Source: Acidobacteriota bacterium
Lineage (GTDB): Bacteria; Acidobacteriota; Terriglobia; UBA7540
Assembly: GCA_902812415.1 (NCBI GenBank)
Contig: CADDZJ010000003.1
Coordinates: 62,001-126,000 of the forward strand
Reading direction: 5' to 3'
DNA length: 64,000 bases
Positions 38,245-51,331 of the stretch are shown piece after piece. The notes beneath the pieces are model-generated. The model ran no database searches and was not told where the DNA came from. It saw only the letters and a program-made list of their open reading frames with translations. The stretch's first letter is position 1. Every line of letters starts with the position of its first letter. A program made the position numbers and the translations under genes.

Positions 38245-39375
38245 TTAATTAAATTTCCCGCTGAAATTCGTGTTCACGCTATTGGTGAGATTGCCGGTGC
38301 AAGAAGTGCTTGTGCTGGGGTCGCAACAAGGCTGGGCGTTTTCATTATAGCCGCACGCCCAGCCGCCGAAATCGCTCAAATCATAAATCCCCTTTAGCGG
38401 GATGGCGATCACGTGATATTGGCCTTGCGGAACGACCATCTGGTAGCTGCCGTCCATATTCGTCAGCGTATCGGTTACCGCTGCGCCCGAAGTTGCATCC
38501 ATCACCACTACATGAGACGCAAAGATGCCCGAGCCTCCCAACGTCACTCTTCCGGAAAGCGTTCCGGTCACACCGGCGAAATTCGCGGAAGGATAGACTG
38601 AGCCGATGCCGATGGCGTCATCCACCGAAAGGTTGCGCTGCGGAACGCCGCCCGTATCACCAAAAGCAAACATGATGGCGTTGGCGAGGCCGCTGTGATC
38701 CATGCCCAGCAGGTGGCCCGCTTCATGCGTCGCAATCGCCTGCAAGTCGAAATCGTTTTGCGGCGTGGTGGGGGCGGTTGAAAAAGTATCCTTCGGATTG
38801 AATTCAATATCCGCATCGACGATGCAGGATTGCAAGGGGCACGTGAAGGTTGCATTGGGATTGGAGGAATGTGCGCACTGGTAACTCAGCGGCGGCGGTG
38901 AGCCAAAAACCGTGGCGATATCCGTGAAAGCGATCGTCCCTGTGGGAAAATCATTGGTGTTGGTATCGGTGAATCCCACCACGTTCACGCAATCCTGAGA
39001 ATCTGGCGCCGTGGTTGAACTGGGCGGCCCCTGAGAAATGATCAGGTTGGCCAGCGGCTGGCTATTCAGGCTTGCATTCTGCCAGGAAGCAAAAGCATTC
39101 TGAAGAGCCTGGATAACGGTCGGGCTCCCGACCGTATCCACATTGTTCCCTGTCGGCCCCAGGCTCCAGCTCACGGTATTTGTGCAAGGAAGACCGTTAT
39201 TGAAATTTCCGCTGCACCATTTGGTGGCTACCGGTCCGTTCACGTTATCCTGCTCGTGGGTGTAGGCAAAGAGAAAAACCGTCGTCGATACGAAAAACAG
39301 GCAGGCGCCAAGCGCCCGCCAGCGTTTATGAACCCGTGAAGGACCGGCAGGCCGCGATGATCTTCTCCATCTCAT
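38245..39375 (-). CDS. Matrixin-family zinc metalloprotease, exported
   Basis: A 376-residue protein with a membrane or signal segment at about residues 21-38 (ALGACLFFVSTTVFLFAY). The metzincin zinc motif HEAGHLLGMDH is at 217-227, with catalytic Glu218 and a likely Met-turn near M235. Residues 265-335 look like a carboxypeptidase-regulatory-type beta sandwich (GTLSGRVTLGGSGIFASHVV, DGSYQMVVPQGQYHVIAIP). There are many Cys pairs. It is last in a three-gene operon, 7 bases after the preceding stop, with a GAGGTG site. The substrate is unknown. Confidence 0.9.
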   Translation of the reverse strand: MRWRRSSRPAGPSRVHKRWRALGACLFFVSTTVFLFAYTHEQDNVNGPVATKWCSGNFNNGLPCTNTVSWSLGPTGNNVDTVGSPTVIQALQNAFASWQNASLNSQPLANLIISQGPPSSTTAPDSQDCVNVVGFTDTNTNDFPTGTIAFTDIATVFGSPPPLSYQCAHSSNPNATFTCPLQSCIVDADIEFNPKDTFSTAPTTPQNDFDLQAIATHEAGHLLGMDHSGLANAIMFAFGDTGGVPQRNLSVDDAIGIGSVYPSANFAGVTGTLSGRVTLGGSGIFASHVVVMDATSGAAVTDTLTNMDGSYQMVVPQGQYHVIAIPLKGIYDLSDFGGWACGYNENAQPCCDPSTSTSCTGNLTNSVNTNFSGKFN

Positions 39376-39382
39376 AAAGCTT

Positions 39383-40282
39383 TCACCTCGTCATCACCGT
39401 CATGCGCTCGCCCTGGAAGGGCGCTTCGCCGCCAGAAACCTGATGGGTGGCCTTGATCGACGCCTCTCGCCCGCGAATCGAGACCGCTGTCCAATGGAGC
39501 GTCCAATGGCCTGCGGTCTTGCTTCCCCATCCATCCACCAGGCTCCCCGCCGGAATCACGGTCTGGGTGTTGGGATAGACATCCTGCGTGGTCTCGGCTT
39601 CCACCTCGATCCTTCCCACCCCGTCAAATGAAACCGAACGGATCACCAGCGGAAGAGCCGTCCCGGAGGGAATCACAATGGGCTTGGCGATTGCGCTTGA
39701 GACTTTCTGATGGAATTCCTGAAGCGGCATGGTTTCAGGCTGCGTGGTCACGTGGCCGCCGGCCGCTGGCTGACCGTAGAAGAAACGCCCCATCGGCGTG
39801 ATCACCCGTTCCTGGCCGGTGCGCTGATCGCGGTAGATGCGATAGGCGCCCTGCATCATCCCCACCACGTGGTAATGCGCTGGAGTCGCGGGAGCGCGCT
39901 CCAGGAACAGCACGTAGCGCGACTGAGGGAAAAAGTGCACTGTACCGGGCACATAGACGCGAAAATGACCGAGCGTACCGCCCGGCTGCTCCACCACGAC
40001 CGTAGACGGAGTGTTGCCCTTGGTATCCGAATCCACCGCAATCGTCGTGAGCGTGACAATCTCCGTATGGCTGGCGTTCCATTCGCTCACCTGGCTCACC
40101 ACGTGACCTTGCAGCACATTGCTTGCCGCCTGGGTCAGTTGTTGCAAACTTAACTGCACCAGGCTGGTGGCGGAGGCGGAGACGGACAGGAATAACTCCA
40201 AGCCCAACGCTAGCGTCGCCAGCGAAAAGGCGCTTTTACTTCCGCTGAAAGAAAATCCGAGAGATCGAGTGCAAGTCTTCAT
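39383..40282 (-). CDS. Exported protein, matrixin-operon partner of unknown function
   Basis: A 299-residue protein with a signal peptide (SLATLALGLELFLSVSASA). The core is beta-rich: QAASNVLQGHVVSQVSEWNA, then TIAVDSDTKGNTPSTVVVEQ, PGGTLGHFRVYVPGTVHFFP and VLFLERAPATPAHYHVVGMM. From memory, proteins of this pattern often lie beside matrixin genes in Acidobacteriota and Myxococcota; I know no assigned function. Four bases separate it from the gene before and 7 from the protease. An inhibitor, chaperone or substrate-binding partner of the protease are all possible. Confidence 0.75.
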   Translation of the reverse strand: MKTCTRSLGFSFSGSKSAFSLATLALGLELFLSVSASATSLVQLSLQQLTQAASNVLQGHVVSQVSEWNASHTEIVTLTTIAVDSDTKGNTPSTVVVEQPGGTLGHFRVYVPGTVHFFPQSRYVLFLERAPATPAHYHVVGMMQGAYRIYRDQRTGQERVITPMGRFFYGQPAAGGHVTTQPETMPLQEFHQKVSSAIAKPIVIPSGTALPLVIRSVSFDGVGRIEVEAETTQDVYPNTQTVIPAGSLVDGWGSKTAGHWTLHWTAVSIRGREASIKATHQVSGGEAPFQGERMTVMTR

Positions 40283-40286
40283 GCTT

Positions 40287-41126
40287 TTAAGATCCAGAAA
40301 CAATAACGACTCCGCCTGGAAAAACGGAAATTTCCCCGGCAGGATTTTCGACGATCAGATTGCGCGGCCCCAGGGCCGCTCCCGGGCTGACGTTGATATT
40401 AAAATTCACCGCGGGAGTGTTATCCGTCGTGGTGGTGAAGTCGCTCACCACCGGTTGAGTGATCGTGATATCGTTATTGCCGGTTATGATATAGAACGTT
40501 CCGGGCTTTATCCCATTTCCAACCACAAAAAGCTGCACATTCTGCGCTCCCGGATTCAAGGTAAGGATTCCCGCCGTGGCGCTCGTTCCAATCCCGATGG
40601 CTTGCAGCAACAATGTGGGAGGATTAAAAGACGGGACAGCGATGTTGACGTTGGAAGTCGTTGCCCCCGCGCTGACCGACACGTTCGTAGGGCTCAAAGC
40701 CGGTACCACGTAGAAGCTTAAGGAGTTGCTAGTTGTGCTGCCCGAAGCGACCGCCACGTTAAAAGTGCCCGCACTTGAAAGGGCGCTTGCGGGAATCTGG
40801 GCTGTCAACTGGCCGGAATTAACAACCGTCGTGGACTCCGACGTTCCGTTAAACACCACCTGGTTACCTGATCCGAAGCCGCTGCCATTCACCGTGAGCG
40901 TAAAGGCGGGCCCATTCTGCATAACGACAATCGGACTCAGGGATGACAAGGAGACCGAACTGCTCCCTGAGCCTGACCCACTGCCTGAACCGCCTCCAGA
41001 ACTCCCGCCGGAGCTTGACCCGCTGCCGCCCCCTCCGCAACAGAGAGTGAAAATAGCCACTGAGAGACATAACGTCCCCAGCAGCAAACCTTGCGAAAAC
41101 CCTTTTCTTTTCACGCCCTTAACCAT
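40287..41126 (-). CDS. Exported TIG/IPT-domain protein with Gly/Ser-rich linker
   Basis: A 279-residue protein. A hydrophobic N-terminus (LLLGTLCLSVAIFTLCC) ends in two Cys and could be a lipoprotein signal, although the lipobox is not canonical. A 35-residue Gly/Ser linker follows, then Ig-like domains of the TIG type (LSSLSPIVVMQNGPAFTLTV, NGSGFGSGNQVVFNGT). The C-terminal half repeats similar strands. It is first in the operon with the matrixin protease, behind a clear sigma-70 promoter. A surface-attached scaffold or adhesion role is inferred only from the fold. Confidence 0.78.
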   Translation of the reverse strand: MVKGVKRKGFSQGLLLGTLCLSVAIFTLCCGGGGSGSSSGGSSGGGSGSGSGSGSSSVSLSSLSPIVVMQNGPAFTLTVNGSGFGSGNQVVFNGTSESTTVVNSGQLTAQIPASALSSAGTFNVAVASGSTTSNSLSFYVVPALSPTNVSVSAGATTSNVNIAVPSFNPPTLLLQAIGIGTSATAGILTLNPGAQNVQLFVVGNGIKPGTFYIITGNNDITITQPVVSDFTTTTDNTPAVNFNINVSPGAALGPRNLIVENPAGEISVFPGGVVIVSGS

Positions 41127-41774
41127 CCGCCTTTCACTGCGGCAAATTAACCGATAGGGTTAGATGCAGCCCTTTCACCGATTGTCGCTTCAACTTTACC
41201 ATGAAGGGGTACTTTCCTGAAAGGATAATATCCATTTATTAACTGACTTTCAATCTCAGCTGATTCTTACAATAACTTCCCCCACCCCTCCTTCACCAAG
41301 GAGGGGTGGTCCCTCCGCGAGCGCGAGCTGAGTCCCCGCATCAAGGATGGGAATTCCCCTCCTCTCTCAAAAGGCGCAGCCTCGCGCATAGCCTTCAAGC
41401 CAAATCGGGATTCGAGAATTATCTTCGTAACTGCCTGATTTTTCAGCACATCCTCGGTTCGCCTTCATCCGCCCATGGCCTTCCAGCCATCGCGCCACAC
41501 CGGGCGCGCCAGCGCGCGGCAGTGAGCCTTGGAGGTGGGCATTGATGGAATTTTTGCGGTCCATTGCGCTCCTTTCATCGCGTCTTCAGCATAGCAGAGC
41601 GGAAAGCGCGAAAGGAGACGGATGAGACATTTGAGACACTTTTCCCATTCATCCCCTTAACCAAGGAGAGGAATTCCCGCCTCCCTGAGAAGGGCAAGCC
41701 ACGGGGCAGCGGAAAGCGTCGGGCTTGCGGTCCGCTTATTTGGGGATGACAGGGTGAAAGGCGGGAGCATTACA
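41127..41774. other. Long intergenic region
   Basis: A 648-bp stretch between the pseudopilin 3' end and the TIG gene. It holds the promoter above and a hairpin of CCCACCCCTCC against GGAGGGGTGG near 41281-41310. Several short open frames have protein-unlike composition, and I call no gene. Confidence 0.55.
41225..41253 (-). promoter_or_regulatory. Sigma-70 promoter of the TIG-matrixin operon
   Basis: On the minus strand: TTGAAA, a 17-base spacer, then TATTAT, giving a leader of roughly 95 bases before ATG 41126. Confidence 0.65.
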
Positions 41775-42539
41775 TCAGTTTGAAAATCCAGAGTCCTGAT
41801 TCCCGGTTGGCTGGTTATTATTCCCGGGCTGAGAGAACAAGGACGGATTATTCATGCCGCCTGGCTGGTTGGAGGGGGAACCGGGCTGAGGCGATTGGGT
41901 GACCTGGGGTTGCGGAAGGCCGTACTCCACATAGTTGAGACCCAGAAATTCCCATTCATCGTAATGTTTCCTGCGATCGATCACGCGAATCGATTGCCGG
42001 TTGCTGCACGGCGCAACGCCCACAATAAAAGCCCCCAGCAGCGTGCCCGTCTGGCCTGAGGAATCGGAGCCTGAATCGAGGGACCGATCACAGGTTGAAG
42101 GCGGATGCTTTTTGGGCTTTTTCGGTTCGGTCTGCTCGGTGGGCACAGATTCCTGCCCGGAAGGGAGTGTTGTCGCGTGAGGTTGCACCTGGCTCGGCGT
42201 CAGTGTGGACTGAACCCAGGAATCAATCAATACGCCGGCGGCGTTCGCATGGATAAATCGCCACCGGCCATTCGGGCTGAGCGGATCACGGTAAGGTTCG
42301 CGCAAAAACCGCATGTTATCCGTCTTGAGCAGGTCTTTAACTGAAGTGGGATAACGCCCAAACCGGCGATGAAAGAGATAGATGGCGCGCTCGTATTGCT
42401 CGGCGCGAAAAATCGCCTCTTCTTCCCGCTCCCGCTGCCCTTCCTGATAAATGCTGGGCAGCGCCGCCGTCAGCGAAATGAGCAGAACCGTGACCATGAT
42501 CATCATGGCCACAAAAGCGTAGCCGCAAGGGGCCGGCAT
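41775..42539 (-). CDS. Atypical pseudopilin lacking Glu5
   Basis: From ATG 42539 this is a 254-residue protein with a six-residue leader ending in Gly (MPAPCG) and a hydrophobic prepilin helix (YAFVAMMIMVTVLLISLTAA). Position +5 of the mature protein is Ala, not Glu. The early globular part resembles GspG (YPTSVKDLLKTDNMRFLREP, then DPLSPNGRWRF), followed by a Pro/Lys-rich linker and a Gln/Asn/Pro tail. The frame is open to 42626, overlapping the PilP-like gene. Loss of Glu5 is typical of tip-initiating pseudopilins such as GspK. Confidence 0.75.
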   Translation of the reverse strand: MPAPCGYAFVAMMIMVTVLLISLTAALPSIYQEGQREREEEAIFRAEQYERAIYLFHRRFGRYPTSVKDLLKTDNMRFLREPYRDPLSPNGRWRFIHANAAGVLIDSWVQSTLTPSQVQPHATTLPSGQESVPTEQTEPKKPKKHPPSTCDRSLDSGSDSSGQTGTLLGAFIVGVAPCSNRQSIRVIDRRKHYDEWEFLGLNYVEYGLPQPQVTQSPQPGSPSNQPGGMNNPSLFSQPGNNNQPTGNQDSGFSN

Positions 42540-42576
42540 GCGCCTCGGGTTCCGGGCGGCGGCGCTTGCGCTTTTG

Positions 42577-43152
42577 CTATTCGGGGAACGGAAGTTCCAC
42601 GGTGTGATGGAAAGACTCATCTTCAATTTCGATCAAGGCGGGAGTGATTTTTAACACCCGGTAAGTCTTGTCAAACACGTCGCCTTCGTGAACCACATAG
42701 ACCTGCTGCTGGTCGGCAAGATAGGCTTCCATAGGGCCTTGATCCTTCACGCTATAGCCCACGGCCTTGAAGGGGACGGGCGGAGGCGGCGGCGGGCCGG
42801 GCGGCGCAGCGCTCGCGGCTTCCGCGGCTTGCCTTGCGCGAAGCGAGGCTTGAATCTGCTGCGGAGTGGGAGCAAACGAAAAGGGATCGCGGTCGGGAGC
42901 GGTCAGCGGCGTCGATTCCAGGGCCTGGTAAGCAACCAGATTCAGCGCGGGGCTTTCCGGCAAAGCTTGCGTCGCGGGCGTTCGAGGAATCACGCGGACA
43001 CGGCTTGCTTCAGGCCGCGCGGGAGGCGGGGTCTGGTCTGCGGCTACGGCGTCCACCGCGCGCATCCGAAAAGCCAGCCGCAGGAAGAGCGCTACGCAAA
43101 CCACGCCGAGAAGGATGGTAACGGCTGTTTCAAGGCGCTTCTTCTGTTTCAT
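42577..43152 (-). CDS. pilP: PilP-like/GspC-like inner-membrane linker protein
   Basis: A 191-residue protein with one N-terminal membrane helix (AVTILLGVVCVALFLRLAF), a long Pro/Ala-rich periplasmic linker (about 40-120) and a C-terminal beta domain (AVGYSVKDQGPMEAYLADQQ, VVHEGDVFDKTYRVLKITPA). This resembles PilP and the homology region of GspC, which connect the inner-membrane platform to the secretin. It follows PilO with a 4-base overlap. No lipobox is seen, unlike many PilP proteins. Confidence 0.72.
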   Translation of the reverse strand: MKQKKRLETAVTILLGVVCVALFLRLAFRMRAVDAVAADQTPPPARPEASRVRVIPRTPATQALPESPALNLVAYQALESTPLTAPDRDPFSFAPTPQQIQASLRARQAAEAASAAPPGPPPPPPVPFKAVGYSVKDQGPMEAYLADQQQVYVVHEGDVFDKTYRVLKITPALIEIEDESFHHTVELPFPE

Positions 43153-43697
43153 GGCATCAGATAAAGATCGGCGCGCAGTTCCAAACCGAGGTCGTTATTT
43201 GCCGTGGAGGTAAACTTGAAGCTGCGCACCACGATGAAATCGCTCGCCGTCTCAAGCTGGTGAGCAAAGGTGAGCAGCCCCGCAAACGGCCCCTCCACGC
43301 TCACCCGAAGCCCCAGGTGCTCGAAAGGCTCGCCCTTCTCATGTTCCACATTATACGCGATTCCGGAAAGCTGCACACCCGATTCCTGGGTGAGATGCTG
43401 AATCAAAAGCGCCGCCCGGGAAAAACCCTCGCGACGCGGCGGAATGTGTTCGGACAGGAAGGCGCGAAGCTCGCGGTCTTCAACCGGAATGGCTGCATTG
43501 CGCTTTTCAAGCTGAGCCCATCGCGCCTTCTCGCGCAGCCAATCGAGGCGGGTCAGCGTGAACTGCTGCTCGTCGCGAGCCGCCAGATGAGCCAGCGGGC
43601 GCTCGAGGCCGAAATAGGCCGCAAGGTCCAGCCCGATCAGGACCAGGGCGACGATGAGCGTGATTCGAGCCCAATCTCTTCGCTTCCGCGCAGTCAT
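43149..43697 (-). CDS. pilO: PilO-like platform protein
   Basis: A 182-residue bitopic membrane protein: a short cytosolic N-terminus, a transmembrane helix (ITLIVALVLIGLDLAAYFGL), a coiled-coil (LDWLREKARWAQLEKRNAAI) and a ferredoxin-like domain (SVEGPFAGLLTFAHQLETAS). ATG 43697 overlaps the pilN stop region and gives the expected size. It forms the PilN/PilO heterodimer of the inner-membrane alignment complex. Confidence 0.8.
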   Translation of the reverse strand: MTARKRRDWARITLIVALVLIGLDLAAYFGLERPLAHLAARDEQQFTLTRLDWLREKARWAQLEKRNAAIPVEDRELRAFLSEHIPPRREGFSRAALLIQHLTQESGVQLSGIAYNVEHEKGEPFEHLGLRVSVEGPFAGLLTFAHQLETASDFIVVRSFKFTSTANNDLGLELRADLYLMP

Positions 43698-43698
43698 G

Positions 43699-44301
43699 TT
43701 ACGGCTGCCGCTCCCCCGTTCTCGGATGGGGCCATTCCGCCCCAACGTAGCGCGCGCTGCACGTGAGCGTCACCATGCCCTTGTTGGTTCCGTTCGTGTC
43801 AAACGCCTGATCCGTAACGGTCACCGCGTTAAAATCCGGAGAGCGTTCAAGATTGCGGAGAAACTGATATACCGCCTCGCTTTCGGCGCCTTCCACGCTG
43901 AACTTGACGGTGGGGCCGTCTTGGGTCTGGGTCAGCGACAGGCTGGTGAGCCGCGCCTGGCCGGGCAGAAGCCGGGTGACTTTGGAAGTCAATCCGGAAA
44001 GCGAAACCTTCTTCTGGTCGATCAGCGAATTCAGGAAATTGATCTGCTGATAGAGTCTTACGGTCGGCGCGCCTCGCAAGACTTCCTGCGACTTGGCCTC
44101 GCGGATGCGCAATTCGCTGATCTCAGCCTGATACCTTAGAATCGAGCGATGCACCTTGCGATACTCCTCAAACTGGCGGCCAGTGGCCATCACGATTTGA
44201 ACCAGAAGAGCAGCCGCCAGGACCATCACCACCGGCGCTCCGTAACGGAGCATCCGGCGCAGGCGACTTTCGGGACTGGCCAGATTAATGTCAATCTTCA
44301 T
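43699..44301 (-). CDS. pilN: PilN-like platform protein
   Basis: A 200-residue protein starting MKIDINLASPES, a close match to the conserved PilN N-terminal INL motif that inserts into PilM. A transmembrane helix (GAPVVMVLAAALLVQIVMA) and a coiled-coil (YRKVHRSILRYQAEISELRI) follow, then a ferredoxin-like C-terminal domain. The first 4 bases overlap the end of pilM. Confidence 0.86.
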   Translation of the reverse strand: MKIDINLASPESRLRRMLRYGAPVVMVLAAALLVQIVMATGRQFEEYRKVHRSILRYQAEISELRIREAKSQEVLRGAPTVRLYQQINFLNSLIDQKKVSLSGLTSKVTRLLPGQARLTSLSLTQTQDGPTVKFSVEGAESEAVYQFLRNLERSPDFNAVTVTDQAFDTNGTNKGMVTLTCSARYVGAEWPHPRTGERQP

Positions 44302-45272
44302 GAAAGTTTTCCGCAGTTTGCAAGCAGACCCGCCAGCGGAGCGCCAAACGCGGCGAAAAGCGGGCGCTCCTCCGCGCTGAGGGGTTGTTCGAGATTCGCG
44401 CCGCAGGGGAGATTCTCAACCGGCAGACCAAGAGCTTCGGATAGAGCCGGATTGAGTCGATCGCCGGCCGCCGGGCGAGCGCAACACCACGCCCGCGCAA
44501 TCTCCACGCCCATGCGGTCGCGGGCGCTGGCCGCCGCGCGCGCCGCTTCAGAAACGATCTCCGCCGTCTGATCCCCTTCCGGCCAGGCCAGCCGCCGGCT
44601 TCGCCAGAACCGCAACCGCTCGCCTTCCACCACCGCATGAGTGACGTATCCCGAGCAGACATGCGTCAGAAGCTGGCCGCCGGCTTCCGCCTCCGAAAGC
44701 AGCGGCAGCAATGCCATGGTGGTCGGAAGGATCAAAAAAGCCCTGCCGCGGAATGGCTCAAGCAGGCTCTCGTACTCCGCGAGCACCGCCTGATTCACGG
44801 CCACAACAAGCAGTTCAATGCGGCTGGGTTCCTGATGGATAATTTGATAAGAAAGATGCGCTTCCTCAGCCGGAAATCCCAGGCTATCCTTGATCTTCCA
44901 ACGGATTAGAGCCTCTAACTCCTTCGCTTTTGCGGGCAATGCCTCAAAGTTCAGCACACTGACCCGAACCACGACATCCGGAATTAAGAGACCGTATCTC
45001 CCCCCTCCGTTGCCTACCGCTTTTGAAATTTTTCCGAGCGCCTGACTCAATCCCTCCGGCTGTTTGACGTTCGATTGCGCAGGCGAGGGATCGAGGATGC
45101 CCGGGTCGAGGCCCGCCACCGCCATGCGACGCAGCGCGGGAGACGCGCCGCCTCCCCACCGCGCTCCGACGACAAACTCAGACTCGATCTCGATGAGGCC
45201 AGCCGGCAGGCTGCGCCGCGATTCGCGCGCGATGAATGCCGGCAGCTTTTGTTTTGAGTCTTTCGGATCCAT
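44298..45272 (-). CDS. pilM: PilM-like actin-fold platform protein
   Basis: A 324-residue cytoplasmic protein with PilM/GspL-type features: a segment near residues 93-150 (GLLIPDVVVRVSVLNFEALP, then ELEALIRWKIKDSLGFPAEE) and later pieces of the actin-like fold. The nucleotide-binding loops are poorly conserved, so ATP binding is uncertain. It is first of the pilM-N-O-P run and separated from gspE by a family B repeat of about 140 bases. Confidence 0.8.
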   Translation of the reverse strand: MDPKDSKQKLPAFIARESRRSLPAGLIEIESEFVVGARWGGGASPALRRMAVAGLDPGILDPSPAQSNVKQPEGLSQALGKISKAVGNGGGRYGLLIPDVVVRVSVLNFEALPAKAKELEALIRWKIKDSLGFPAEEAHLSYQIIHQEPSRIELLVVAVNQAVLAEYESLLEPFRGRAFLILPTTMALLPLLSEAEAGGQLLTHVCSGYVTHAVVEGERLRFWRSRRLAWPEGDQTAEIVSEAARAAASARDRMGVEIARAWCCARPAAGDRLNPALSEALGLPVENLPCGANLEQPLSAEERPLFAAFGAPLAGLLANCGKLS

Positions 45273-45313
45273 AATGGGGCGCTTTTAGGCCGAAGATGCG
45301 GTCTCACGGGAAC

Positions 45314-45397
45314 TGCAAATTATAAAGTGACAACATTATTCTTTGGCGGCGCTGTCCCAGCGCCGAAAAACCGCCGGTGAGGACACCAGCGCTACAG
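45314..45397. repeat. Family B palindromic repeat, copy 3 (truncated right end)
   Basis: TGCAAATTATAAAGTGACAAC at the left, then GGCGGCGCTGTCCCAGCGCC and GAGGACACCAGCGCTACAG. The right terminal arm is missing. It fills the gap between pilM and gspE. Confidence 0.7.
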
Positions 45398-45412
45398 CCG
45401 AGCACGGCGCGC

Positions 45413-47023
45413 CTATTCGACAAACGTCACCTTATTAATCTCGCGCAGCGTCGTCACGCCTTCGCGGACTTTCTCGAGCGCTGATTCGCGCAAGGTCACC
45501 ATGCCCTCGCGTCGCGCCGCGCGGCGCAGTTCCGAAGTGGATTTCCGCTCGAGGATCAGCTCGCGGATGGTGTCCGTCAGGGCCATCAGTTCCCCGATCG
45601 CCGTGCGCCCGCGGAAGCCCGTCTGGTTGCAAAGGGGGCAGCCTGCGCCTTCATACATCACCACGCCGCGCCAGGCTTCGAAATCCAGGCCCGATTCCTC
45701 ATAAAGCTCCAGGGGAACCTCCACCGGCCGTTTGCAGGCTTCGCAGATCATCCGCACCAGGCGCTGCGCCAGAATGCAATTGAGCGCCGAAACAAAATGG
45801 TAGGAGTCCACGCCCATGTTCAGAAAGCGGCTCAGAACGTCCACCACGTTGTTGGCGTGGACGGTGGTGAAAACCAGGTGGCCGGTCAGCGCGGACTGGA
45901 TGGCGATCTGGGCTGTCTCATTGTCTCGAATCTCGCCCACCATGATCTTGTCAGGATCATGCCGCAAAATCGACCGCAGCCCGCGGGCAAACGTCAGCCC
46001 CTTCTTCTCATTCACCGGCACCTGCGTGATGCCGCGAATCTGGTATTCCACGGGATCTTCGATGGTGATGATCTTGTCTTCGTCGCTCTTGATTTCCGAG
46101 ATGGCCGCGTAAAGCGTGGTGGTTTTGCCGCTGCCGGTCGGCCCGGTGACCAGCACCATGCCATAAGGCTCGCGGATGAACCGACGCAGGCGCTTGAGTT
46201 CCCGATCATGAAAGCCCAGAACGTCCAGCCGCAACTGGCGGAACTTCTCACTGAGCGATTCCTTATCCAGGATGCGGAGCACCGCATCCTCCCCATTAAT
46301 CGACGGCATGATGGACACCCGGAAATCAATCGAGCGGCCTTTGTAGAAAACTCGGAAGCGGCCATCCTGCGGCACGCGCCGTTCAGCGATGTCAAGCTCC
46401 GCCATCACTTTGATGCGCGTGATCAGGTTGGACTGATACTCCTGCGCGAGAGGCGTCATCGCCTCCTGCAATACGCCATCGATCCGGTTTTTCACCACCA
46501 CGGCGTTGTCATGGCATTCAATATGAATGTCGCTGGCGCGGCGTTCCAATCCGGCAAAGATGATGGAATCCACCAGACGGATCATCGGATTGACGTCACG
46601 CCCTTCGACCAGATGTTCCAGGGATAAGACGGCTTCCTCATCCTGCTCCGCCCCGGCGGTGGTGACGCGAAAATCTTCCGTGGCCTGATCCAGCACCCGC
46701 CGTGAAGGTTCCGTCATCTTCAGCAGATCACGCAACTGGTTCGCCGCCGCTACGCGGATGGTCAGGCGGCGGTTCAGCTTCAATTCCAGCTCCTCAAACC
46801 GGTCGAGCGCGGCAGGGTCAGCGACGGCAATGGCCAGGGAATGGTCGTGCGCCTCCAGAGGGAAGAACTCGTATTTCACCATCAGGTCGAGCGGAATCGA
46901 TTGCAGCAACGCCTGATCAGCCTCAAAGCCGCGCAGGTCCACAAACTCAAAGTGGTAGCGCGATGCAAGTTCCCGGGCTCGGTCCAGTTCAGTCTGGCTT
47001 TGTAATTGGACTTCCTCAGCCAT
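45413..47023 (-). CDS. gspE: GspE/PilB-type secretion or pilus-extension ATPase
   Basis: A 536-residue hexameric ATPase. Walker A is GPTGSGKTT (294-302), the Asp box is ASDIHIE (about 163-169), Walker B lies in IMVGEIRDNETAQIA and the His box in HLVFTTVHANNVVD. A tetra-Cys zinc motif (CEAC...CPLCNQ) near 425-465 marks the GspE/PilB extension group rather than PilT. The N-terminal domain is a short T2SSE_N module. No PilT-type retraction ATPase is encoded in the window. A GGAGGTG-like site precedes the ATG. Confidence 0.93.
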   Translation of the reverse strand: MAEEVQLQSQTELDRARELASRYHFEFVDLRGFEADQALLQSIPLDLMVKYEFFPLEAHDHSLAIAVADPAALDRFEELELKLNRRLTIRVAAANQLRDLLKMTEPSRRVLDQATEDFRVTTAGAEQDEEAVLSLEHLVEGRDVNPMIRLVDSIIFAGLERRASDIHIECHDNAVVVKNRIDGVLQEAMTPLAQEYQSNLITRIKVMAELDIAERRVPQDGRFRVFYKGRSIDFRVSIMPSINGEDAVLRILDKESLSEKFRQLRLDVLGFHDRELKRLRRFIREPYGMVLVTGPTGSGKTTTLYAAISEIKSDEDKIITIEDPVEYQIRGITQVPVNEKKGLTFARGLRSILRHDPDKIMVGEIRDNETAQIAIQSALTGHLVFTTVHANNVVDVLSRFLNMGVDSYHFVSALNCILAQRLVRMICEACKRPVEVPLELYEESGLDFEAWRGVVMYEGAGCPLCNQTGFRGRTAIGELMALTDTIRELILERKSTSELRRAARREGMVTLRESALEKVREGVTTLREINKVTFVE

Positions 47024-47202
47024 TCTTCACCTCCGAAAGCATCAGACCTGCGCCATTTTTAGTCGTCTGTCACTAACGTTTCTGGACAATGTGTGGTCAA
47101 GGCCAGGATGGCCATGCCACCATCGTGGCACGGGCGTCCCGCTCGCGGGTCCGGTCCAGGTGTTGATGGGACATACGACTTGACGCATATTCATCTGCCG
47201 CG

Positions 47203-48405
47203 CTAAGCCACCTGTGAGTAAAGCGAGAACAGCGGCAGATAGAACGCAATCAAAATAAAAGCCACCACCACCGCGACGGCGGCGATCATGAGCGGATCGA
47301 CCAGCGCCACCAGCGCCGCAAGATCGATGTTTACATCCTCTTCGTAAAATTCGGCGACGCTGTCGAGCATGGCCGCCAGGGCGCCCGTGGTCTCGCCCAC
47401 CTCGACCATATCCAGGGCGGTTGAGGGGAAAAGCCCGCTCGCCTGGAGGCTCGAGAACAACGAGTGGCCGCCCGTCACTTCCTTGGCGGCGTTACCGATG
47501 GCCCTGGCAATCAAGGGGCTGGTGATGGAAGCCTGTGTCGTTTCCAGCGCTTCGACAATCGGCACCCCTCCTTGCAGCAACGTCCCGAGCGAGCGCGCAA
47601 ACTCGCCGACGGAAAACTTCAGCAGAAGAGGCCCAACGCCGGGCAAGCCAAACTTCAGGCGATCCCATGCCAGGCGCACGCGCGGAGATTTCCATGCCGC
47701 ACGGAGCGCGAACGCTAAAAGAATAACCGCGATGAAGATTTCCAGCGCCGAATGACGCGCGCCCAGCGCAAAGGCGATGGTCATCTGCGTGATCTGCGGC
47801 AACTGAATGTTCAGATCACGGTAAAGCATGGCGAAATTGGGCACAATGAAGCTGACCACGAAGCTCACCAGAACGCACAGGAAGAAAACCAAAAAGGCAG
47901 GGTAAATGAGAGCCGCCAGAATCTTTTTGCGAAAACCGCGGCTGATTTTCTGATAGGAAAGATATTGGGCGAGCACCTTGTCCAGGCTGCCGCTGCGCTC
48001 GCCGGCGCGGATCGTAGCCGCATAGAGCTTGGGAAAGCGGCCGGTCGCCTCAAAAGCGTCCGAGAGCAACGCCCCGGAACGCACCGAGTCTCGCACTTTT
48101 TCAAGCGCCGCTCGCATTTCCTGGCTGCGGGCCTGGCGCGCCAGCAATTCCAGGGATTTCTGAAGCGGCAACCCGGATCGGGAAAGGGTGAGAAACTGCT
48201 GGTTAAAAATCACGAACTCATCCGCGCGAATCTTGCGCCGACTCAGGAAGGCCAGGTTGGCGTGCAGCCAATCCTTAGACCGCACCGAGAAGATGTAGTA
48301 GCCTTGTGCCGCCAGTCGCTGCCGGACTTCTGTTTCGGATTCCGCCTGCTCGGTCTGGTTCAGCACCTGACCGCCAGCCGTGGCAACTTTACAGATAAAT
48401 TCCAT
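47203..48405 (-). CDS. gspF: GspF/PilC-type inner-membrane platform protein
   Basis: A 400-residue polytopic protein with two GspF domains (about 65-190 and 270-390) and three hydrophobic segments, including AALIYPAFLVFFLCVLVSFV and MIAAVAVVVAFILIAFYLPL. The motifs FNQQFLTLSRSGLPLQKSLE and TTGALAAMLDSVAEFYEEDV are typical. It anchors the assembly ATPase and pseudopilins. About 180 bases separate it from gspE, containing a TGCCAC/GTGGCA palindrome. Confidence 0.92.
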   Translation of the reverse strand: MEFICKVATAGGQVLNQTEQAESETEVRQRLAAQGYYIFSVRSKDWLHANLAFLSRRKIRADEFVIFNQQFLTLSRSGLPLQKSLELLARQARSQEMRAALEKVRDSVRSGALLSDAFEATGRFPKLYAATIRAGERSGSLDKVLAQYLSYQKISRGFRKKILAALIYPAFLVFFLCVLVSFVVSFIVPNFAMLYRDLNIQLPQITQMTIAFALGARHSALEIFIAVILLAFALRAAWKSPRVRLAWDRLKFGLPGVGPLLLKFSVGEFARSLGTLLQGGVPIVEALETTQASITSPLIARAIGNAAKEVTGGHSLFSSLQASGLFPSTALDMVEVGETTGALAAMLDSVAEFYEEDVNIDLAALVALVDPLMIAAVAVVVAFILIAFYLPLFSLYSQVA

Positions 48406-48518
48406 AATTCCGAGCCGTGGAAGGACGTTTCAACCTGATTTGTGCGGAGACATTTGTACGATGGATGGATAATGGAACTTCCGTTCCTGCTTTTCTGCCT
48501 TCCGCTTTCCGCTCTTTC

Positions 48519-49028
48519 TTACCAGTCACTATAATGCGTTCCATCCAGCGCGGTGGCGTCCGACCCGCTGTGTACGTCTACAACCCCCGACTGCGCCTGG
48601 TCAGACGAGGTCGGCACATCTTCGATATCCACTTTCCAGGTTTCGCTGGACCCCGTCATCGGGTCCACAGGAATGCCGCCGCGCAGATAACCCGCGTCCA
48701 CCAAATCCTGCAAAGCGGCGGGCGGTTGCTGCTTATCCACGGTGTATTCGTCAATGAGATGGCGCATCGTATAAAGATCATCGCGCAGGACGGCCTCCCG
48801 CGCCCGCCGGATAGCCGTTGTATAGGTGGGAACCGCAAACGAAGCCAGAATCATGATCAACGTCAGCACCACCATCAGTTCAAGCAGGGTAAAGCCGACT
48901 GGGAAGGTCCTCTGTCGGTTGTCCGTAGCTCGTCGTCCATCCTTCGTCCTGCTTCGCACCTGACACCTGACGCCTGACACCCGTTTTCTTAAGGCTATCT
49001 TTGCTTGTCTGGCGTTCATCCTGATCAT
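48519..49028 (-). CDS. GspG-like major pseudopilin (paralogue 2)
   Basis: A 169-residue type II pseudopilin. The prepilin site is PVG/FTLLELMVVLTLIMIL with Glu5 intact. The globular domain has the GspG-type VDAGYLRGGIPVDPMTGSSE loop and ends LDGTHYSDW. The leader as read from ATG 49028 is 45 residues, far longer than usual. About half of it (GVRCQVRSRTKDGRRATDN) is encoded by a low-complexity direct-repeat tract. No better start lies nearer the cleavage site. Confidence 0.85.
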   Translation of the reverse strand: MIRMNARQAKIALRKRVSGVRCQVRSRTKDGRRATDNRQRTFPVGFTLLELMVVLTLIMILASFAVPTYTTAIRRAREAVLRDDLYTMRHLIDEYTVDKQQPPAALQDLVDAGYLRGGIPVDPMTGSSETWKVDIEDVPTSSDQAQSGVVDVHSGSDATALDGTHYSDW

Positions 49029-49037
49029 CCATTCACT

Positions 49038-49511
49038 CTACCAACTCGAATATGGCGTGCCATCCAGGCCCGTGCCGTTACTCTTGGAATACACGTCAAA
49101 GACATTTTCACCGCCCCACGAGGTCGAGTCCGGATCGTCCTGCATCGAGCGCAATCCCCAATCAGCCTGTCCCGTCATCGGATCGACGGGGATTTTACGC
49201 AAAAAGCGATAGCGAAGCTTTGAAGACCCTTTCACCGGGACGCCTTTTACGAGCGTTTCGAGATCGGGCGGGTAGCCAAACGTATCGGGCTGAACCGGAA
49301 TCAGGCCCCGATCTGAGAAATCCTTATAGTGGTCAATGGCCGTTCGGATTTCGCGCAAGTCGCGCCGCAACTCCACTTCTCTCAAATGCTGAGCGTGCAT
49401 TTGCGCGAGCGGCAGAGCCACGCTGGCCAGAAGCGCCATGAGCGCCATGGTCACCACCAGTTCCAGCAGCGTAAAGCCGCGTTCGGCATTTTTCTCAATG
49501 CCTTCTTTCAA
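49038..49511 (-). CDS. GspG-like pseudopilin (paralogue 1)
   Basis: A 157-residue pseudopilin from TTG 49511, which overlaps the secretin stop (TTGA) and has AGGAG seven bases ahead. The leader is then 12 residues (MKEGIEKNAERG), followed by FTLLELVVTMALMALLASVA with Glu5. The globular part has KIPVDPMTGQADWGLRS and ends LDGTPYSSW, the same tail as the downstream paralogue. An ATG at 49592 is in frame but would overlap the secretin by 85 bases. It probably forms the pseudopilus with its paralogue. Confidence 0.86.
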   Translation of the reverse strand: MKEGIEKNAERGFTLLELVVTMALMALLASVALPLAQMHAQHLREVELRRDLREIRTAIDHYKDFSDRGLIPVQPDTFGYPPDLETLVKGVPVKGSSKLRYRFLRKIPVDPMTGQADWGLRSMQDDPDSTSWGGENVFDVYSKSNGTGLDGTPYSSW

Positions 49512-51331
49512 CGCCGGACTCCTTGAGGCTGCTGGCTTGGCGCGACGGGTTTCGAGCCTTCGACCGGTGGAGGCGGAGAGGGCGGATTCCATCGCTGAGC
49601 TTCAAGATCGTCCGGCAGCCGCACGATGCGCGGGTTGAGCATGATCAAAACCTCTTCGTCCCTCACCTCGTAGCTCTGATCGGAAAAGAAGTACTTCAGC
49701 AAAGGAATGTCCGCCAAACCCGGCAATCCCGACACAATGCGATTCGTCTGCGACTGAATCAGCCCTCCGAGCAGGCTCACCTCGCCTTCCTTCAGGCGGA
49801 TGGTGTGTTCCACCGTGCGTTGCGTGAACGTAGGCTCCTCCACACCCCCGATATTCACCGGCGTTCCCACTGATGAAATATCGATCTTGGCTTTCAGAAT
49901 GATGTCGCCATTGGCCGCAACAAAGGGGGTAATATCCAGATTCACGCCTACGTCCTGGTACTGAAACTGCGTATTCGCCAAAAGACCGAAAGCGCTGGTC
50001 CCGCCGCCTAACACACCCGCTGTCGGCACGCCAAAGCTGCCGGTTGCGAAGGGAACGCGCTGGCCAATCCGCAATTTGGCGTCTTCGCCCGCTGTGACAC
50101 GAAGCTGCGGATTCTGCAAGACATGAGTCTGGTTATCAGTCAGCAAAGCGTTGGCGATGACGCCCGGCAAAGCCACGGAGAAATCCCCTGTTGTCAGTTT
50201 GCCCAGCCGGTTCAACTGCAAAGTGGGAGCGGTCGGCGTCGTCTGGCCATTTGAGCCGGTCGTCGAAGAACTGCTGCCGGGCGGGTTAAAGCCAAAAGCC
50301 ATCAGGGTATTGCCGGAAAGAGGCACTGGAGAAAGGCCCAGGTCGCGCAGTCGATCTTTATCCGCTTCGAGCACCGTCACATCGATCAATACTTCCGCCT
50401 TCCCGCGATCGAGACTATGGATCAATTTTTCAGCGGTCGCAACCTTATCCGGCGTTCCGTAAATGATGATCGAGTTCGTTTCCGGATTATCGTAGGCCTT
50501 CTGGATTCCAACCACCTGCTTGACGGCGGTCAGGATCGCGGTGCGGTCCGTGGGCGAGAGCGGGTTCTGGAGATAAACCGTCTTCATAACCTCCAGTTCC
50601 ATTTCCCGGCGGTTCGACGGGCTGTCCGTCACTACCAGAATCGTATTCGGCGTGATCGGCTTCCAGAAGACGCCCGCTTCAACCGCAGCCGCCTGAAGGG
50701 CTTCGCCGATAGTGACGTTGGTCAGGTCAAGGGAGACGGGCCGGGGCTGAAAATTATAATAGAAAACCACATTGATGCCGGCCAGCTTGGCCAGCGTCTC
50801 AAACACGCGGCGGCTATCTGCGGAAATATGGAGGTGAGCGATGGGCTCAGTGGAAAGCGGCTTCAACTCGGCGGCGCCGGCGGTTTCGGTCTGCTGCCCG
50901 CGTTCCATCGCCCTGCGAATCTCATTCTCGCGCCGCCTCTTGGCGGCAGATTCCTGCCATAAAATTCGCTGAAGTTCCTCAGCCGCCGCTTGATTGCTGG
51001 GATCAATGCTGACAGCTTTCTGAAACTCTCCAGCCGCCTCCGAAGGACGATTTTCAGCCAGCAGTTGCTTCCCCTTGGCGTAGTGAGTCAGCGAGGCTTT
51101 CGTGCGGGCTTCGTGCTCGTAGATCAGAAAACGAGGATTATTCGGCTGAATCTGAAGGGCTTTCTGGAAGTTGATGACGGCGGTATCGTAGTCTTTCTGC
51201 TCTTCGGCTTTCCGGCCCTGGCGAAAAGCGACCGTCGCCGGACTGCAACTGACGCAGAGTAAAACGGCTCCCAGCACAACCGCCAGCCATAGCCTTCCGC
51301 CCTGCGCCTTCTGCCCAAACTTGCCTGACAT
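49508..51331 (-). CDS. TPR-secretin fusion, outer-membrane channel
   Basis: A 607-residue protein. The N-terminus is a signal with a possible lipoprotein Cys (LGAVLLCVSCSPA). Residues about 34-120 hold two TPR units (QGRKAEEQKDYDTAVINFQK, then ENRPSEAAGEFQKAVSIDPS). A secretin-type STN domain spans about 165-250 and a secretin N-domain about 260-335. The C-terminal secretin barrel includes VGVNLDITPFVAANGDIILK and EGEVSLLGGLIQSQ. TPR and secretin are usually separate genes (pilotin or MshN-like). Member of the hybrid system with GspE, GspF and PilMNOP. Confidence 0.9.
   Translation of the reverse strand: MSGKFGQKAQGGRLWLAVVLGAVLLCVSCSPATVAFRQGRKAEEQKDYDTAVINFQKALQIQPNNPRFLIYEHEARTKASLTHYAKGKQLLAENRPSEAAGEFQKAVSIDPSNQAAAEELQRILWQESAAKRRRENEIRRAMERGQQTETAGAAELKPLSTEPIAHLHISADSRRVFETLAKLAGINVVFYYNFQPRPVSLDLTNVTIGEALQAAAVEAGVFWKPITPNTILVVTDSPSNRREMELEVMKTVYLQNPLSPTDRTAILTAVKQVVGIQKAYDNPETNSIIIYGTPDKVATAEKLIHSLDRGKAEVLIDVTVLEADKDRLRDLGLSPVPLSGNTLMAFGFNPPGSSSSTTGSNGQTTPTAPTLQLNRLGKLTTGDFSVALPGVIANALLTDNQTHVLQNPQLRVTAGEDAKLRIGQRVPFATGSFGVPTAGVLGGGTSAFGLLANTQFQYQDVGVNLDITPFVAANGDIILKAKIDISSVGTPVNIGGVEEPTFTQRTVEHTIRLKEGEVSLLGGLIQSQTNRIVSGLPGLADIPLLKYFFSDQSYEVRDEEVLIMLNPRIVRLPDDLEAQRWNPPSPPPPVEGSKPVAPSQQPQGVRR

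Follow-up and report, generated by a model that had tools for sequence, protein, structure and literature searches.

Tannerella forsythia produces potempins, inhibitors of its KLIKK proteases, one of which is the matrixin karilysin (PMC7296668, PMC4404884). In Listeria, the metzincin Mtz cleaves the TIMP-like lipoprotein Tim, a proposed effector; the TIMP likeness of Tim was obtained with Phyre2 at about 60% confidence, and the authors found no earlier report of TIMP-resembling bacterial proteins (PMC8235301). Inhibition by AprI (alkaline protease inhibitor, MEROPS I38) is described as involving a zinc-NH2 bond (Hege 2001, as cited in PMC8235301). TIMP is at present traced back to the ancestor of the eumetazoans (PMC10755359). 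The Listeria mtz-tim pair and the Tannerella potempins are the nearest precedents for the operon described here, whose middle gene, judged by sequence comparison and structure models, encodes an exported TIMP/NTR-superfamily protein that is probably the cognate inhibitor of the neighboring matrixin.

The operon lies in a 64,000-nucleotide stretch of DNA, the window, from a soil bacterium of the Terriglobia (Table 1). Three minus-strand ORFs are separated by the spacers AAGC (4 bases) and AAGCTTT (7 bases), and a signal-peptide-like segment opens each of the three proteins, which confirms the compact operon of exported proteins described in the first-pass annotation. Same-family relatives keep this order, with a gene 1 counterpart upstream of the middle protein-matrixin pair, and the arrangement is therefore not a chance one. 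The good promoter claimed for the operon does not stand because the region holds 3 promoter-like sites of 10/12 quality versus 2.4 ± 1.5 in shuffles; the match is statistically unremarkable, and promoter strength was dropped as evidence. Gene 1, previously called a TIG protein, encodes an exported Ig/TIG-like protein but does not match the Pfam TIG model, matching NCBIfam NF058597 (choice-of-anchor Z repeat; E = 6e-21) instead. The type II secretion-like cluster next to the operon encodes the secretin GspD, two pseudopilins, GspF, GspE, PilM/N/O/P-like proteins and a pseudopilin-like protein, and the cassette also comes after such a cluster in 10 of 15 loci of the Terriglobia family.

Table 1. 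Features of the matrixin operon and its surroundings, in window coordinates.
Feature	Position	Strand	Remarks
Type II secretion-like cluster directly upstream of the operon	41775..51331	-	Same strand as the operon
Sigma-70-like promoter match TTGAAA-17-TATTAT (10/12)	41253..41225	-	About 100 bases before gene 1
Gene 1, exported Ig/TIG-like protein, 279 aa, possible lipoprotein	41126..40287	-	CoaZ repeat at residues 59-140
Gene 2 (P0001), middle protein, TIMP/NTR-like and VirB10-like domains, 299 aa	40282..39383	-	AlphaFold pLDDT 85
Mature NTR/TIMP-like OB-fold domain of gene 2, residues 39 to about 160	39803..40168	-	N-terminus predicted T39-S40
C-terminal beta domain of gene 2, residues 200-299	39386..39685	-	Fold like VirB10/TrwE/ComB10/CagY C-terminal domains
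Gene 3, exported matrixin (metzincin, PF00413), 376 aa	39375..38245	-	Weak CarboxypepD_reg-like tail
Catalytic zinc site HEAGHLLGMDH of gene 3, residues 217-227	38695..38727	-	HExxHxxGxxH motif

The gene 3 protein scores 49 bits against PF00413 (E = 7e-13, cut-off 24) and has a Met-turn region (AIMF) after the zinc site, in agreement with the complete protease site noted earlier. There is no PRCGxP-like motif and no cysteine-switch prodomain in this matrixin, and a PRCGxP-like switch is present in only 1 of 146 stand-alone family matrixins. The cysteine-switch prodomain is a trait of animal MMPs and is not required of bacterial matrixins.

The middle protein matched no Pfam, NCBIfam or PHROGs family; matches to the CshA repeat and complement C3 were weak and were taken as chance. 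Its predicted signal peptidase I site is the AxA sequence A36-S37-A38 and its only cysteine sits at residue 4, thus the protein lacks a lipobox. A PDB fold search with the AlphaFold model of gene 2 matched agrin NtA (1jb3, probability 1.00, TMt 0.60), which is titled "structurally related to N-TIMP-1" in the PDB, and TIMP-2 (1br9, probability 1.00). The model of a Myxococcales relative placed TIMP-3, TIMP-2, the PCOLCE NTR domain, TIMP-1, TIMP-1 and TIMP-2 at ranks 1-6 of 350,542 chains. The Foldseek E-values are modest (0.01-0.1), and the two independent models agree in predicting an NTR-type OB fold for the gene 2 N-terminal domain. The C-terminal 100 residues match VirB10-type structures in fold (probability 1.00), and this domain is fused to the NTR/TIMP-like domain only in the Terriglobia family of gene 2.

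Neither gene 2 nor its relatives match PF00965 (TIMP), and a direct HHalign comparison of the middle-protein family with TIMP alone was not significant (probability 2%, P = 0.02). A control search with PF00965 turned up bacterial CxC proteins, one of which passes the Pfam TIMP gathering score. HHalign aligned this CxC family with the middle-protein family at E = 2.1e-10 and with human TIMP-2/3 at E = 1.1e-9; the real bridge alignments scored 60-64 versus a top score of ≤16.6 in 60 column shuffles. The homology to TIMP rests on the CxC bridge and the fold rather than on the direct profile comparison; taken together, profiles and models give good support for placing the gene 2 N-terminal domain in the TIMP/NTR superfamily.

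The N-terminal Cys-x-Cys of TIMP proper is absent from the family, which has Thr-Thr/Ser-Leu instead. The residue before the predicted mature start (residue 0) is Ala in 87 of 94 domains, residue 1 is Thr or Ser in 75 of 94 and residue 2 is Thr or Ser in 65 of 94. From residue 1 to the Gly/Ala of strand A there are 21 residues in 83 of 95 domains, the same spacing as in TIMP-1 and TIMP-2, and 75 of the 95 NTR/TIMP-like domains are cysteine-free.

Of the genomes sampled, 128 of 297 from Acidobacteriota and 146 of 189 from Myxococcota encode homologues of the middle protein, and no plasmid homologues were found. A same-strand matrixin was adjacent or C-terminally fused at 108 of 119 evaluable loci in these two phyla. 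Pairing was seen at 20/20 loci of the protein's own family, 8/8 of the class, 23/27 of the top phylum hits, 32/33 of a phylum sample without preselection and 25/31 Myxococcota loci. The matrixin lies downstream of its partner in 93 of 94 unfused pairs, and the NTR domain is N-terminal in every one of 14 NTR-matrixin fusions; no fused protein was present in the viral contigs searched. In the reverse tally, an NTR/TIMP-like partner domain accompanied 20 of 30 matrixins. A matrixin detection threshold of E ≤ 1e-6 was too strict for cross-genome co-occurrence scoring. These counts bear out the first-pass statement that the family sits beside matrixins in other phyla as well. No matrixin adjoins six of the Myxococcota loci or the membrane-anchored "FDEKV" subgroup (L084, L086, L089-L091), which counts against an inhibitor, as do the dead matrixins that serve as partners at L116 and L142.

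The same counts bear on the proposal that the NTR domain serves in targeting or adhesion and recruits the protease to a ligand. In its favor, agrin NtA and the PCOLCE NTR domain stand near the top of the fold searches, and the middle protein carries a further accessory domain, the VirB10-like one. Some NTR domains such as these two are not chiefly known as MMP inhibitors, which counts against inhibition. The near-obligate link to matrixins makes a targeting role very unlikely, and the related CxC family shows no such linkage (0 of 22 CxC-TIMP genes adjoin a matrixin in the specificity control).

The earlier suggestion of a dedicated inhibitor, activator or substrate is narrowed by the fold and the TIMP bridge to a TIMP-type inhibitor; inhibition itself we infer, and the best reading is that the inhibitor would silence the matrixin during export. 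Signal peptidase would cleave behind the conserved Ala to leave a free Thr-(Thr/Ser) N-terminus. By analogy with TIMP, this N-terminus and the next loop, which carries an invariant Gly-Gly, would form a ridge that enters the active-site cleft; the free α-amine and first carbonyl of the inhibitor would then bind the catalytic zinc, and the side chain of residue 2 would sit in S1′. Model confidence is poor near the N-terminus (residues 32-37, pLDDT < 50) and the family lacks the cysteines by which residues 1 and 3 of TIMP are stapled; both points count against this reading. Translated first from the same message, the inhibitor would hold the matrixin inactive during folding in the periplasm and up to its export, a role that would fall to the inhibitor since the protease lacks a cysteine-switch prodomain. 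Export plausibly proceeds through the adjacent type II secretion machine, and the VirB10-like tail may, more speculatively, tether the inhibitor to the envelope and let the protease leave alone. In the fusions, the inhibitor domain would occupy the usual place of a prodomain.

That position also suits a folding helper or latency domain akin to a prodomain, an intramolecular chaperone that would act in cis in the fusions and in trans in the operons. The N-terminal or upstream location of the domain, the lack of a classical prodomain in the matrixins and the retention of the domain next to dead matrixins all fit such a helper. In the operons each partner is a polypeptide in its own right and has a signal peptide of its own, and a conserved free mature N-terminus together with TIMP homology is specifically what an inhibitor needs; a folding helper is accordingly unlikely. 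Alternatively, the partner could be a substrate or effector that the matrixin cuts to release an active TIMP-like fragment, as proposed for Mtz-Tim. This is the reading with an experimental precedent in a metzincin and TIMP-like pair (PMC8235301), a precedent that counts against inhibition, and membrane-anchored variants are known here as well (the FDEKV subgroup and L042). It is nevertheless improbable: the majority of members are not lipoproteins, both modules stay in one chain in the fusions and no common cleavage site is evident between the NTR domain and the tail.

Read as cognate inhibition, the pairing gives a large unnamed family of hypothetical proteins a concrete, testable function and offers a possible answer to how bacterial matrixins that lack a cysteine-switch prodomain might be restrained. 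Its recurrence, sometimes as a fusion, in two phyla suggests that TIMP-style control of matrixins is not an animal invention, and the physical coupling of bacterial TIMP homologues to matrixins has a bearing on where the MMP/TIMP system came from. It is a tentative idea, and one that leans toward doubtful, that an operonic or fused bacterial NTR-fold module whose N-terminus chelates the matrixin zinc shares common ancestry with animal MMP/TIMP. If true, a bacterial protease-inhibitor cassette could be the ancestor of the animal pair, or the source from which that pair was put together on two occasions. The natural fusions are ready constructs for structural work and possible scaffolds for metalloprotease inhibitors.

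Potempin A is an OB-fold protein, and no potempin was among the 50 best fold matches of either the gene 2 or the Myxococcales model. AprI has a lipocalin-like barrel, unlike the middle protein, and targets serralysins rather than matrixins; it is a cognate bacterial inhibitor of a metzincin, as the middle protein is predicted to be. The potempins, like the putative inhibitor here, are exported and encoded immediately in front of their cognate proteases, one of which is a matrixin, whereas they are small lipoproteins of one Bacteroidota species with no significant mutual sequence similarity (PMC4404884). Listeria mtz-tim likewise has a secreted metzincin gene adjoining a TIMP-like gene, but it is a prophage-linked Firmicutes pair with tim downstream of mtz (PMC8235301). 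The cassette here is chromosomal, has the partner upstream and belongs to Gram-negative phyla; the two are likened by description, not by sequence. The gene 2 tail is predicted to resemble the TrbI-type C-terminal domain of VirB10, ComB10 and CagY in fold; here it is appended to a TIMP-like protein, and no type IV secretion role is implied. The middle family resembles TIMP (PF00965) in its predicted OB fold, in the length of the N-terminal segment ahead of strand A, in a Thr/Ser as second residue, in having a matrixin as partner and in the profile homology that runs by way of the bacterial CxC proteins. The N-terminal CxC, the TIMP disulphides, the C-terminal TIMP subdomain and detection by PF00965 belong to TIMP only, whereas the middle family is bacterial and is encoded beside, or fused to, its protease.

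The operon comprises three minus-strand genes, with the gaps of 4 and 7 bases that the first-pass annotation gave, and its last product is a matrixin whose zinc site (HEAGHLLGMDH, residues 217–227) is complete, as also described there (49 bits for PF00413 against a cut-off of 24). The first product, originally called a TIG protein, is a choice-of-anchor Z (CoaZ) repeat protein by its NF058597 match. The promoter upstream of the operon had been stressed as a good one, and its match does not exceed chance expectation. The middle gene encodes P0001, an exported protein of 299 residues without a named family.

Features of the matrixin cassette, its surroundings and selected homologous loci
Feature	Sequence	Position	Strand	Basis or remark
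TIG/Ig-like exported protein (gene 1)	Window	41126..40287	-	ORF
Middle protein P0001 (gene 2)	Window	40282..39383	-	ORF
VirB10/ComB10-like C-terminal domain of P0001	Window	39386-39685	-	Predicted fold
Matrixin (gene 3)	Window	39375..38245	-	ORF; PF00413
Type II secretion-like cluster (GspD-type secretin, pseudopilins, GspF, GspE, PilM/N/O/P-like)	Window	41775-51331	-	Directly upstream of cassette
TIMP-like domain with degenerate matrixin	L116	5079-7016		Fused
TIMP-like domain with degenerate matrixin	L142	from 1396		Adjoining
Fusion with membrane segment	L042	58-1992	-

An AlphaFold model of P0001 consists of two beta domains (mean pLDDT 85) and has low confidence at the mature N-terminus (residues 32–37, pLDDT < 50). 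In Foldseek searches of the PDB, the first domain resembled agrin NtA, TIMP-2, TIMP-1 and PCOLCE NTR (probabilities 0.98–1.00), and the second domain resembled the VirB10, TrwE, ComB10 and CagY C-terminal domains (probability about 1.00). Fusion of a VirB10/ComB10-like domain to the TIMP-like domain is confined to the window's Terriglobia family. For a Myxococcales homologue with the first domain only, also modelled (pLDDT 72), ranks 1–6 of 350,542 chains were TIMP-3, TIMP-2, PCOLCE NTR, TIMP-1, TIMP-1 and TIMP-2. Foldseek E-values are modest (0.01–0.09), as is usual with small OB folds; despite this, the TIMP/NTR ranking obtained with the predicted models is specific.

Direct profile comparison of the middle family with TIMPs was not significant (P = 0.02). 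The Pfam TIMP model, used as a control query, found a bacterial protein whose mature N-terminus is CSC, as in TIMPs, and its relatives form a bacterial family with Cys-x-Cys mature N-termini (CxC family), of which one member, L194, exceeds the Pfam TIMP gathering score (27.0 vs 23.1 bits). By HHalign, the CxC family matched both the middle family (E = 2.1e-10, 94 columns) and human TIMP-2/-3 (E = 1.1e-9, 100 columns), with scores of 60–64 against a top score of 16.6 for column-shuffled controls. Both links persist when the CxC protein that was the initial hit of the TIMP-model search is removed, and with PDB-verified TIMP sequences only, a repeat that uses the checked TIMP-2 and TIMP-3 sequences and leaves out TIMP-1. 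The source of the signal is the wider Acidobacteriota set (E = 3.7e-11 against the CxC family); the window's own family alone (22 sequences) gives a weaker match (E = 3.7e-4). Membership of P0001 in the TIMP/NTR superfamily is well supported, and we hold it to be very probable. P0001 is not a TIMP proper, having neither a CxC N-terminus nor a PF00965 match. Exported CxC TIMP-like proteins form a separate Acidobacteriota family (L188–L209) that is not beside matrixins, and in a specificity control 0 of 22 CxC-family genes adjoined a matrixin.

Full-length relatives of P0001 lie within its own Terriglobia family, and the N-terminal 150–200 residues are far more widespread, occurring in 65 of the 101 nearest genomes, 128 of 297 sampled Acidobacteriota genomes and 146 of 189 Myxococcota genomes. 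The neighbor tally proposed in the first-pass annotation was run on ORFs called mechanically, with profiles constructed here for each partner; of 119 evaluable loci, 108 had a matrixin that was either fused or adjoining on the same strand. By sample, pairing was 20/20 in the family, 8/8 in the class, 25/31 in Myxococcota, 23/27 among the highest-scoring phylum matches and 32/33 in a further phylum sample drawn without regard to neighbors. Conversely, 20 of the 30 best phylum matrixins have the domain adjoining or within the same protein. The Acidobacteriota exceptions without a matrixin all belong to one distinct subgroup (L084, L086, L089, L090 and L091), whose proteins combine an FDEKV motif with a membrane anchor at the C-terminus. 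In two loci, L116 and L142, the partner is a degenerate matrixin whose zinc motif has been lost (e.g. HNVGHFIGLGE) and which is a possible pseudoprotease.

The matrixin lies downstream in 93 of 94 unfused pairs, and in 14 fusions the middle-type domain is N-terminal to the matrixin in a single chain. A domain so placed could act as a prodomain or chaperone, a role we consider unlikely. With its additional CoaZ/TIG repeat, the L039 fusion unites the modules of all three operon genes in one chain. The TIMP-like domain and the matrixin of the L042 fusion are joined through a predicted membrane segment, and these halves might sit on different sides of the membrane or be split by cleavage.

P0001 is a putative TIMP-type inhibitor of its cognate matrixin, the reading we regard as probable. 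In TIMPs, the Cys1 amine and carbonyl chelate the active-site zinc, Thr/Ser2 is directed into S1′, and a second loop completes the ridge; the complexes 1uea and 3ma2 are among the fold matches. The signal peptide of the middle family ends in a near-invariant Ala (87/94), followed by Thr/Ser at residue 1 (75/94) and residue 2 (65/94). The strand-A Gly/Ala lies exactly 21 residues from residue 1 in 83 of 95 members, the same spacing as in TIMP-1 and TIMP-2, and in profile alignments an invariant Gly-Gly (residues 101–102 of P0001) aligns to the TIMP second-loop region. The family differs from TIMPs in lacking the disulfides that hold the N-terminus, 75 of 95 domains having no Cys. A cysteine-switch motif occurs in 1 of 146 stand-alone matrixins, so nearly all would need another form of control; this may instead be a short prodomain, as in karilysin.

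Among the 15 family loci with sufficient flanking sequence, 10 retain the link between the cassette and the secretion-like cluster. The substrates of type II systems are proteins already folded in the periplasm, and a matrixin that would fold there before export is therefore a likely cargo, as the linkage suggests. An inhibitor translated first from the shared message would protect the cell from the protease. The middle-type domain might otherwise serve targeting, which we think very improbable.

The nearest known systems are Listeria mtz-tim, a metzincin with a TIMP-like lipoprotein, and the Tannerella potempins, small inhibitors whose genes immediately precede those of their KLIKK proteases; a cognate inhibitor beside a metzincin is already a known kind of arrangement. 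P0001 could also act as an effector after cleavage, the role reported for Listeria Tim (PMC8235301), and this seems to us rather improbable. Since no description of the middle-protein family was found in the literature accessible without subscription, and TIMPs were dated to the eumetazoan ancestor in a 2023 analysis (PMC10755359), the new element is a broad set of bacterial TIMP homologues linked to matrixins through shared operons and through fusions.
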